From assembly GCA_009889515.1 (NCBI GenBank), contig WUQR01000068.1, positions 186,001 to 250,000 on the forward strand: a stretch of 64,000 nucleotides of DNA, written 5' to 3'. The notes beneath the pieces are model-generated. The model ran no database searches. It saw nothing but the letters and a program-made list of their open reading frames with translations, and was not told where the DNA came from. Source of the stretch: Nitrososphaerota archaeon. GTDB taxonomy: Archaea > Thermoproteota > Nitrososphaeria_A > Caldarchaeales > Calditenuaceae. Position numbers and translations under genes: made by a program. Shown piece after piece: positions 50,694 through 53,537 of the stretch (its first letter is position 1; each line of letters opens with the position of its first letter).

Positions 50694-51168
50694 TAGCCTG
50701 TCCCCACCTCGTGCTATCTATTATCACACTACAGAGTCGCTGAGGATGGATAAAAAAGGTTAGAGCCTATACGCGCTCAGCCATGTCAGGTCTTGAGGCT
50801 ACCCCACCCCTACATACTCTTTGCACAACCCGTGTCACAATCCGCGTCACATTTTGTGTCACAACTGCTTAAATCTGAGTCTCCGCGTGTCTCTCTCGGA
50901 CAGTCCTCCAATGGGTCTCCGATGAGGAGGGCGTCCCCCCAGTCGGGCGATCGATCCAATGAGGCAGGGGATAGCCGAGGCGCCTCCTCCAGGGGCGGTG
51001 GAGGAGGCGTAAAGGAGCGGTCGCCCGATAGCAGAAGAGTCCGCGAAGGCATGGTGCAGTCCCACGCCTCTCGCGGGACGGGCCTCCGCCGCCGGGCTGA
51101 GGCCGCGCGCCCATAGAAGACGCGGCTATAGGTCTGGACAGAGAATATAGACGATGACCATAACCACA
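50694..51168. other. Long non-coding stretch, first part
   Basis: A minus-strand TATA element (CTTTTTTATCC near 50745-50755) serves the gene to the left. Overlapping frames on both strands are low-complexity and not credible. A 12-nt triple repeat is listed separately. Confidence 0.4.
50832..50867. repeat. Three 12-nt direct repeats with core GYGTCACA
   Basis: GTGTCACAA, GCGTCACAT and GTGTCACAA begin at 50832, 50844 and 50856, exactly 12 nt apart. This is iteron-like spacing, slightly more than one helical turn. The array lies about 140 nt upstream of the minus-strand gene start at 50693. Confidence 0.5.
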
Positions 51169-51268
51169 TCCTTCTCCCCCGATTCTCACCCTAGTATGGG
51201 TGACCACCCCATACTCTCGTCATGGGTGGGGTGGCGGGGGGAGGGGTTTGGCTGGGCTCTGGGCCTTG

Positions 51269-51381
51269 GGACGGCCGCGTGGCTGACCACGCACCCGGAC
51301 AGCCGCGTGGTTGACGGGTGTGACCCCGAAGCCATGCATGCCGGGACCGCCACTCCTGGGCAGGACAGCCGCGTGGCTGAC
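51269..51381. repeat. Three copies of a 19-mer GGACRGCCGCGTGGYTGAC
   Basis: Copies at 51269-51287, 51297-51315 and 51363-51381. The first is followed by CCACGC, forming the hairpin GCGTGG-CTGA-CCACGC. They lie upstream of the structured region and recombinase gene and could be recombinase or RNA-processing sites. Confidence 0.5.
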
Positions 51382-51477
51382 GGACGCGTGGAAGGGGACG
51401 AGGGATGCCAAATAATTGCCGAAGATATCGGATGAGCCTTGATGTTTCTGAATGACTGTTCCCTGTGCCACGCTAGC

Positions 51478-51745: not shown

Positions 51746-51796
51746 CAAATCAAAGTGGAAGAACTCGAGGATTAATGGGAGGATGACGAATAGGTG

Positions 51797-52687
51797 ATGG
51801 GGATGATGCAGACCTCCGTGAGAGCTGTTAGAAGATTCTACATCGACATACACAGACTAGCTAATAAGAATAGAAAGAATAAGACTGAGGAGAGCTATCA
51901 CATATACACCATTGATGGTGAGATGTTCGGCAAGGCGAGGACCTTGATGGATATTACAGCCAAAGAGGGAGACGAGCTCTACGTAGATACAATCCCGATA
52001 GAGCTCACAGACGAGTTCATTGAGATGCTGAGGAGAGGTGTTAGGGTCTTCTATTTGAGAAGACCAACATTGATAGCGAGGAAGAGAAAGGAGTTGGGAT
52101 TGTCTAAGACTAGTAGAAACGATCTCAGAGCTATGATGACGCTAGAGCCTAAATGGTTCATAGAAGTCGGTGAAGACTTTCTGGTGATTAGAAGGCTAGC
52201 TGCCACGTTCAGAAGTCTATTAAAGACTCATGTGAGCCTTTTGAATAGGGCTAAGGCCCTACAGGAGGCTGAGAGGAAGATTCTGATAGATTCTGTCAAG
52301 TCCCTCGAGAAATCTATGAGTGATATGGCTATGTTGATTGTCGCAGAGGCGGAGAAGAGGATGCCAGCCTACCGTAAAGTGGTCGAAGCTCTAGGAATCT
52401 CCGGCGACAACTATCTATTTGCTAAGGAGGCTCTAGCAGAAATCATGCCATACATTGACAGAAGCACATCGTGTAGAAGGATTATGAAGTTATTAGGCCT
52501 CTATAGAGGACATAGAGGTGTTGACAAGTTCTACAATAAACCGGCTAGGAGCGCTCTTTCCAGACTGACAGCAGCGTTACTGAACAATACATATCACAGA
52601 GCAAAGGACGAGGAGAAAATACTGCGAAGAATATGGACAACAATAAAACAATCGGAGCCCCAGGAAAGGCTGGGGGCACCGGCCTAG
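51797..52687 (+). mobile_element. Divergent IS110-like (RuvC-fold) recombinase gene
   Basis: About 296 aa from ATG 51797 (the GTG at 51794 is also possible), with a GGAGGATGA ribosome site upstream. Counting from the GTG, the N-terminal domain has YIDIH (Asp18), a beta-strand with YVDT (Asp65, where IS110 enzymes have Glu), RGVRVFYLRRP, and SKTSRNDLRAM (Asp110), matching the IS110 K-x-D-x-x-D-A region with the first Asp replaced by Ser107. The middle is helical. The C-terminus shows EALGISGDNYLFAKEALAEI and MKLLGLYRGHRG, recalling the Transposase_20 domain, but the catalytic serine is not obvious. It may be a degenerate or specialised member. Other RuvC-fold families are possible. Confidence 0.5.
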
Positions 52688-52827
52688 ACAGCAGGGAAAA
52701 ACCCTAGACGGCCGGTGCCCGAAAAGATATAGGTGGTAGAGAAACTCTCTACCGCCCCCTCAATTTATAGCCCGGTCGTCCTTTCCTAGGGGTTCCTAGG
52801 TGCTGTCTGGCAGGCCTGCCCCCAGCC
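52668..52827 (+). ncRNA. Branched structured RNA starting within the 3' end of the recombinase gene
   Basis: All helices are nested and compatible. P1 GGCTGGGGGCA (52668-52678) pairs with 52817-52827, continued by GGCCT (52681-52685) with AGGCC (52812-52816). P2 AGACAGCA (52686-52693) pairs with 52801-52808. P3 GACGGCCGG (52707-52715) pairs with 52772-52780 (one G-U). P4 GGTGGTAGAGA (52732-52742) pairs with 52746-52756 (one G-U). P5 CCTAGG pairs with CCTAGG (52785-52800). P3 and P4 enclose an internal loop of 16 and 15 nt. A competing 11-bp stem GGGCACCGGCC (52674-52684) with 52710-52720 would exclude P1 and P3. The recombinase stop codon is in the left arm. Bridge-RNA-like by position; also possibly a terminator or transposon end. 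Confidence 0.55.
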
Positions 52828-52990
52828 AAACCCTCCCCTATCTCTCCCTCCCAATTCTTGCCTCACACCAGTATAGGATTCCTTCTCGAGCTTAGCTACT
52901 AAGAGAGTATAATCCTACCCACGAGACCCGGTTAGCTACCCTGCGAGTTTTAGTCTCGCTGAGAAGCCACTGAATTACGCCTAGTCTGTG

Positions 52991-53275
52991 TCACCTATCA
53001 ACAACTATTACAGGCTTACCATCACAAATGTCTAGTACCCTTCTTAAGAATGTTAGGGCAGTGACGATGGGTCTACTCCTGGATGCGTATATGTGTATAT
53101 AGCTGTTATCTCTCTAAATCCACACCTATTGCAGACCAACATGTATACTATGCTGCCGTAGACCTTCTCTACAGTCTCGTCTACGACACCCATCCTCCTA
53201 GGCCTCCTCTTCGGCCCTGAATAAAATCCTCAGTCTATGAACCATCTCTAATACTCTCTCTAGCAGCATAATTTC
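52991..53275 (-). pseudogene. Remnant of a DDE transposase (IS6/IS240-like)
   Basis: Reading the minus strand through several frame changes recovers family blocks in the right order: GVVDETVEKVYGSIVY (first catalytic Asp), WSAIGVDLE, EITAIYTYT, and ALTFLRRVLDICDGKPVIVV then Asp-Arg (second catalytic Asp). The Glu-containing C-terminus is missing. It is a decayed insertion, showing the area is a repeated landing site for mobile DNA. Confidence 0.6.
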
Positions 53276-53500
53276 AGAAAATATCTCTCACATATATCCC
53301 CAAGGCTAAGATCAGCTATAACAGAACAACAGCATACAACCTCTCAGAAGGACTATACCTATTGGTTCAGAACAGTTTGAGAAAGACTATACTACATGGT
53401 TCGTTCAAAGATATGCATAACAAAGTGAGACAACTACAAGGCCTTGAACTGTCTCTAAAAATCTTAAATAAAAGTTGACAGCACCCTGCAAACCATCCGT
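53276..53500. other. Gap between transposase remnant and aromatic operon
   Basis: Contains an open plus-strand frame of about 65 codons without a start (including AYNLSEGLYLLVQNSLRK), ending at TGA 53480. It is probably another mobile-element remnant. No tRNA seen. Confidence 0.3.
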
Positions 53501-53537
53501 TAAATATAAATTGAGCGGGCTTCCTTTTTCAGCCCGC
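53501..53537 (+). promoter_or_regulatory. TATA box and start-site palindrome of the aromatic operon
   Basis: TAAATATAAA (53501-53510) is followed by GCGGGCT (53515-53521) and AGCCCGC (53531-53537), then ATG at 53538. Transcription should begin at about 53531-53535, inside the palindrome, so the palindrome is more likely a DNA operator than an RNA hairpin. A very similar arrangement occurs at 48.8 kb. Confidence 0.55.

Follow-up and report, generated by a model that had tools for sequence, protein, structure and literature searches.

The window, a stretch of 64,000 nt, carries a protein gene and a structured RNA that together form the core of a putative mobile element. The gene occupies 51794-52687 on the forward strand, starts with GTG, and encodes a 297-aa protein with an IS110/TasR fold. 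The RNA lies at 52668-52827 on the same strand and begins 20 nt before the end of the gene. Unique sequence, the right-hand cargo or filler of the insertion, extends from 52828 to 53506, and the right half of the target site (core TA followed by AATTGAG) marks the right boundary of the insertion at 53507-53515.

The initial annotation described the gene as IS110-like, and structural comparison bears this out at the level of fold. The AlphaFold2 model (pLDDT 84.6) comprises a RuvC-like domain, a coiled coil, and a small C-terminal helical domain. Its best Foldseek matches are ISCro4 (9t56, E 2.2e-7), IS621 (8wt6, E 1.3e-6), and TIGR-TasR (9mty, E 7.5e-6). Its alignments with 9t56 and 8wt6 are full-length (TMq 0.61-0.66) and include the DEDD RuvC, coiled-coil, and Tnp folds, and it matches the RuvC-Nop fold of TasR with TMq 0.56. 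Sequence profiles gave little: searches of the window protein against Pfam (PF01548/PF02371) and NCBIfam (NF033542) returned 0 families, the best Pfam/NCBIfam values for IS110 profiles across the family were 0.016 and 0.047, and a PHROGs search of the protein found nothing convincing. Comparison of the window gene with sister copy L024 yields a dN/dS of 0.21, within a range of 0.14-0.26 for the gene. Judged by these ratios, the gene is under purifying selection.

Four residues, D18, D65, K105, and D110, are kept in family alignments and are apparent counterparts of D11, E60, the lysine of the KxDxxD motif, and D105 of IS621. The composite active site of IS621 consists of S241 and D102, each of which is essential (PMC11208158). 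The D102 equivalent, the third acidic residue of the DEDD set, is S, G, or A in the near clade (motif K-[ST]-x-x-x-D) and D only in distant Caldarchaeal relatives. No serine occurs among the invariant or 90%-conserved columns of the A1/A2 alignments. The segment GLVPSERSSGG is present in canonical IS110 proteins of this archaeal order, and visual alignment found no counterpart of its SSGG in the family. Since hhalign could not reliably align the family with two canonical IS110 fragments (Prob about 5), the apparent loss of S241 is read from the lack of a conserved serine together with the visual alignment.

The predicted minimum free energy of the 160-nt RNA is -94.9 kcal/mol (z = -8.69), a stability reached by none of 200 dinucleotide-shuffled sequences. 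The nested helices and two-stranded internal loop described in the initial annotation are present, and a covariance model built from 15 copies, with the window copy excluded, recovered 52668-52827 (+) end to end at 72.3 bits (E = 1.8e-13). In the predicted fold, the outer stem pairs 52668-52677 with 52818-52827, and this helix covaries. The apical hairpin at 52732-52756, helix 9 of the covariance model, shows compensatory changes in seven of its eight pairs. The reverse strand also folds (z = -7.3), as would be expected for a long imperfect palindrome; pair counts were taken from sense-strand rows only, with antisense matches excluded. Among 25 sense-strand copies, 94.8% of cells are paired and 31 of 46 pairs show compensatory double changes, so that the proposed helices hold up under covariation analysis. 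Sliding the partners by 1-3 columns leaves 31-48% of cells paired and 6-14 compensatory pairs. The 10 copies outside the covariance-model set give 93.5% paired cells and 30 compensatory pairs. Homologous RNA stretches of 143-166 nt lie 3' of the same gene in aligned copies. Searches of the 160-nt RNA found no Rfam family at the gathering threshold and no tRNA or tmRNA. The fold is real and conserved beside the gene across the family. In the most distant Caldarchaeal relatives (L212-L229; genomes G026, G030, G034, G035, and G038), a strong hairpin with a conserved stem likewise lies at the 3' end, its apical loop region being variable, and dual spacers may therefore be a feature of the superfamily as a whole.

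What had been noted as a 16/15-nt internal loop is the guide loop, which holds two spacers. Spacer A (GAAAAGATA, 52721-52729) lies on the 5' strand and is homologous to a hypervariable spacer position in other copies. Spacer B (CTCAATTTA, 52759-52767) lies on the 3' strand, and its reverse complement occurs exactly at 53507-53515. The apical hairpin separates the two. Spacer limits were initially drawn by visual inspection of the Ca. Caldarchaeum subterraneum copies. Five of these (L028, L029, L030, L032, and L033) contain two hypervariable 9-nt stretches, one per loop strand, with a pairwise difference of 54% at 14 spacer positions versus 3.6% across the remaining RNA. Copies L028 and L030 differ at 0 of 115 positions outside the loop (apical hairpin apart) and at 7 of 14 in the spacers. 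Measured in this way, guides diverge strongly between related copies. Symmetric conserved motifs surround both spacers (AUGAC..GACG, GUC..AAC, and CACC..AWCGC) and are not CCA/UG. The terminal 2 nt of A can pair with those of B in 16 of 27 copies, compared with a mean of 7.5 after shuffling (P 1.5e-4; control positions 2-4). Each RNA has one variable loop, and one spacer pair was present per locus in all loci read.

The spacers correspond, with a fixed geometry, to the DNA on either side of the insertions. The left flank matches B, and A is the reverse complement of the right flank; in flipped copies, A matches the left flank and B is the reverse complement of the right. Over 22 copies, the best spacer-flank pairs contain 43 mismatches, compared with 82 +/- 4 after random exchange of guides between copies (0 of 20,000). 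At six of six sites, joining the flanks at the core predicted by the guide gives a sequence that aligns as one unbroken stretch of 400-800 bp with sister genome G017 (86-96%), where the target is empty. These targets are CAGGGTT-AA-ATAATGC for L028 (16-bp target CAGGGTTAAATAATGC), CTAACCT-AA-ATAAGCT for L029, TCACGAT-TT-ATACCGT for L030, CATMCTT-AA-ATAATCT for L032 and GSTTGAT-TT-ATGGGTT for L033 (one substitution each), and AAACTCTTATAGAAG for L034. The comparison is an independent test of the guide because the right end was chosen by the guide first and uninterrupted DNA was then found in another genome. Both strands of the loop thus match flanks and empty targets, and spacers A and B jointly specify a site of about 16 bp. 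On this genomic evidence, the spacers predict, to the base, where copies inserted. Older copies, including L031, L036, and L038, show a weak flank match or none. The HRbin02 copy L175 was considered as a guide-site match and rejected, as the orthologous window site puts the junctions elsewhere. It shares its guide with another copy and sits away from that guide's site; therefore, guides can also change, or be converted, after insertion.

For the window copy, homology to five sister genomes, upstream of asd, starts at 53502-53507. The orthologous site in HRbin02 (AAAAATATAAATTGAG) agrees with the guide-predicted 16-mer (GAAAAGATAAATTGAG) at 14 of 16 positions. The right boundary at 53507, predicted by spacer B, is confirmed by this genome comparison. 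The filler at 52828-53506 is absent upstream of asd in the five sister genomes, and its equivalent in other copies is a patchwork of host DNA. The left boundary of the window copy was not located, the best candidates for spacer A having at least 2 mismatches. One candidate at 51141 was rejected, as it falls inside a dispersed repeat common to other loci. This dispersed structured repeat (50938-51409) is GC-rich, contains repeated units of about 21 nt (GGACAGCCGCGTGGTTGACGG), and has copies of 72-81% similarity at C68:31091-31354 in the same genome and in G004; an Rfam search of it gave no match.

The ends of the element differ in every copy and include fragments of host genes. The distance from the RNA to the right target half varies between a few tens of bases and about 780 nt, and this interval includes host-gene fragments from elsewhere in the genome; the cargo of L029 contains two 79-nt pieces of host DNA. 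A 5' fragment of gatD lies inside L030 (G014) and L049 (G017). The two fragments share a left breakpoint and have different right breakpoints at their respective target sites. In L049 the fragment begins at TTATATCAT, one mismatch from the copy's own guide half TTATAACAT, which suggests that L049 moved from an earlier site and took its right flank along. The reading that this G017 copy sits at gatD was rejected, as the copy carries a gatD fragment and the real gatD lies elsewhere. Copies occur in both orientations relative to the guide, with non-palindromic cores. Duplications of 3-6 bp accompany six events (TTAA, TAAAT, TAA, ATTTAT, TATG, and TCTT; P 0.003 versus the 2-nt core alone); they fall within target positions 5-12, and that of L030 covers positions 6-11. 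A donor-guide search of the RNA against the left terminus of the element performed no better than shuffled sequence, and no donor-binding loop matching conserved ends was found, the RNA having a single variable loop and the ends not being conserved. Upstream of the gene, in divergent orientation, L028 carries a truncated ORF (L028:3262-3837, +) with equivalents in L030, L032, L033, and L029, and a dN/dS of 0.21 between L028 and L033. In a low-confidence model, its homologue in G017, which lies near a PolB-like gene, has the fold of a PCNA sliding clamp (Foldseek E 6e-9).

Of the 44 genomes of the class, 17 contain homologues, whereas 0 of about 350 others of the phylum do, and the multicopy family has so far been seen only in Caldarchaeales. 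A search of viral contigs found no relatives, and a literature search of incomplete coverage found no description of the family. In HRbin02 (G002; for example, L159, L167, L175, L177, and L178), many RNA copies lie beside a mere fragment of the protein gene, which suggests non-autonomous derivatives. The same genome holds two pairs of copies with identical guides. Canonical IS110 with the SSGG serine motif was present in 2 of 41 genomes searched (G002 and G019; L134-L138), and the variant is therefore the commoner form in the order.

At a probability of roughly 60%, we favour a mobile element that would be inserted through an RNA-guided staggered break and repair, with guides that diverge between copies. 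This interpretation draws on analogy with TasR. The element consists of a RuvC/coiled-coil/helical protein of the IS110-TasR superfamily and the RNA of about 160 nt at the 3' end of its gene. As the flanks and empty sites show, spacer B matches the left half of the target together with the 2-nt core, and spacer A is the reverse complement of the stretch from the core through the right half. A protein dimer may open the target using the RNA, and its RuvC sites would then break the two strands at offset positions around the core, with a stagger of at most about 6 nt. In TasR, both strands are cleaved at the fifth spacer base, which produces 8-nt 3' overhangs when half-targets abut (PMC12045711). 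Under this rule, the 2-nt overlap seen here would yield a 6-nt overhang at positions 6-11, a geometry borrowed from TasR. Repair would paste in a segment made of the element and variable neighbouring DNA from the donor locus and other loci, a route expected to yield 3-6 bp duplications, insertion in either orientation, and ragged ends. We infer the cutting, the repair route, and the expression of the RNA. A guide could come to match its own site through mutation followed by insertion, or through rewriting by the target. Because a random 16-nt guide rarely has a perfect genomic match, either many mutant guides would be sampled or the guide would be rewritten from the target. More tentatively, the element may move by RNA-guided double-strand breakage and repair-mediated capture, with neither end recognition nor recombinase chemistry, the dual guide changing at each move, by rewriting or by rapid re-evolution, such that almost all copies carry a guide to the site they occupy.

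Several other explanations were weighed against this break-and-repair reading. A divergent but mechanistically ordinary IS110 transposon would recombine a circular donor with the target that the guide specifies, by strand exchange at a 2-bp core, and its donor recognition would be short or degenerate. It would fit the best fold matches, IS621 and ISCro4, the RNA adjoining the gene, and the two-guide loop with a shared core dinucleotide, which is the geometry of the IS110 target-binding loop (PMC11208160). Nonetheless, we regard it as unlikely: the C-terminal domain has no invariant serine and the D102 equivalent is lost in the near clade, both residues being essential in IS621 (PMC11208158), and there is no second variable loop. 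The match of the RNA to the left end is no better than chance, the ends differ per copy and contain host-gene fragments, both orientations occur despite non-palindromic cores, and the duplications measure 3-6 bp.

Another rival is a process akin to retrotransposition, in which the ribonucleoprotein cuts the target and an enzyme from elsewhere copies a read-through transcript, spanning gene, guide RNA, and 3' flank, into the break by reverse transcription. Copies often lack the 5' part of the gene yet retain the RNA, the 3' cargo resembles 3' transduction (as in the L049 gatD fragment, which starts one mismatch from its own guide), and all captured coding fragments inspected are in sense orientation. 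The absence of a reverse transcriptase from the element, the presence of promoter DNA upstream of gatD among the captured fragments, and the lack of a poly(A) or priming signature make this decidedly unlikely. As for a non-mobile RNA-guided nuclease or regulator, a solitary TIGR-Tas-like locus whose spacers match local DNA by chance, its appeal lies in the fold and in dual 9-nt spacers that resemble TIGR-TasR (PMC12045711). This reading is highly improbable, as six copies are insertions with empty sites in a sister genome and junctions predicted by the spacers, and the shuffled-guide control also speaks against chance matching; the empty sites largely refute it.

If the break-and-repair reading is true, the element represents a third use of the dual-strand guide of the IS110/TIGR/box C/D superfamily. 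It would provide programmable insertion that needs neither a donor loop nor serine chemistry, and would sit naturally between the nucleases (TasR) and the recombinases (IS110) that are guided by RNA. The hosts are archaea, where the related Nop5/box C/D system operates. Through six matched filled and empty sites, the targeting code is readable from genomes alone, and the family is a source of thermophilic proteins for direct tests. The question raised is how the guide comes to match each new site.

Three known systems come closest. The nuclease genes of IS200/IS605-type elements (TnpB and IscB) likewise have a guide RNA at their 3' end, and it matches the element's own flank or empty site. The guide of those systems is the flank itself, adjoining a fixed end, whereas here two internal spacers match both flanks, up to about 0.9 kb away on the right. 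TnpB and the present protein family are unrelated.

TIGR-TasR shares the RuvC, coiled-coil, and Nop-like domain fold, as well as two 9-nt spacers that each match one strand of a single target. It tolerates swapped spacers, and the present element occurs in both orientations; its staggered 3' overhang rule fits the duplications. However, TasR, which is not known to act as a transposon, draws its 36-nt RNAs from processed tandem arrays, whereas here a multicopy mobile element has a single spacer pair within its 160-nt RNA, and the two spacers share 2-3 nt of the target. Box C (CCA) and box D (UG) flank each TIGR spacer, and symmetric conserved motifs of other sequence flank both spacers here.

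The IS110/IS1111 transposons (IS621, ISCro4, and ISEc11), whose RNA is called bridge RNA or seekRNA, resemble the element in protein fold (Foldseek E about 1e-7 to 1e-6) and in a structured RNA beside the gene, which lies downstream, as in IS1111. In both, two internal-loop strands pair with opposite target strands, share a common core dinucleotide, and form a guide that predicts the site. The element departs from them in its one loop with no donor loop found, in the lack of a conserved catalytic serine and, in the near clade, of the third DEDD residue, and in its failure to match IS110 profiles of Pfam or NCBIfam. Its ends vary and carry host cargo, insertion occurs in either orientation with 3-6 bp duplications, and guides differ between close copies within one genome. 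The initial annotation had proposed a bridge RNA. The part that stands is an adjacent guide RNA whose loop matches targets; the part that falls is the strict bridge-RNA identity, given no detectable donor loop, no conserved counterpart of S241 and D102 in the near clade, unfixed ends, both orientations, and duplications of 3-6 bp rather than 2-bp core exchange. The guide-RNA reading is right and the canonical bridge-RNA reading is not, and the element looks like a relative of the bridge-RNA (IS110) transposons that has dispensed with serine chemistry and fixed ends.
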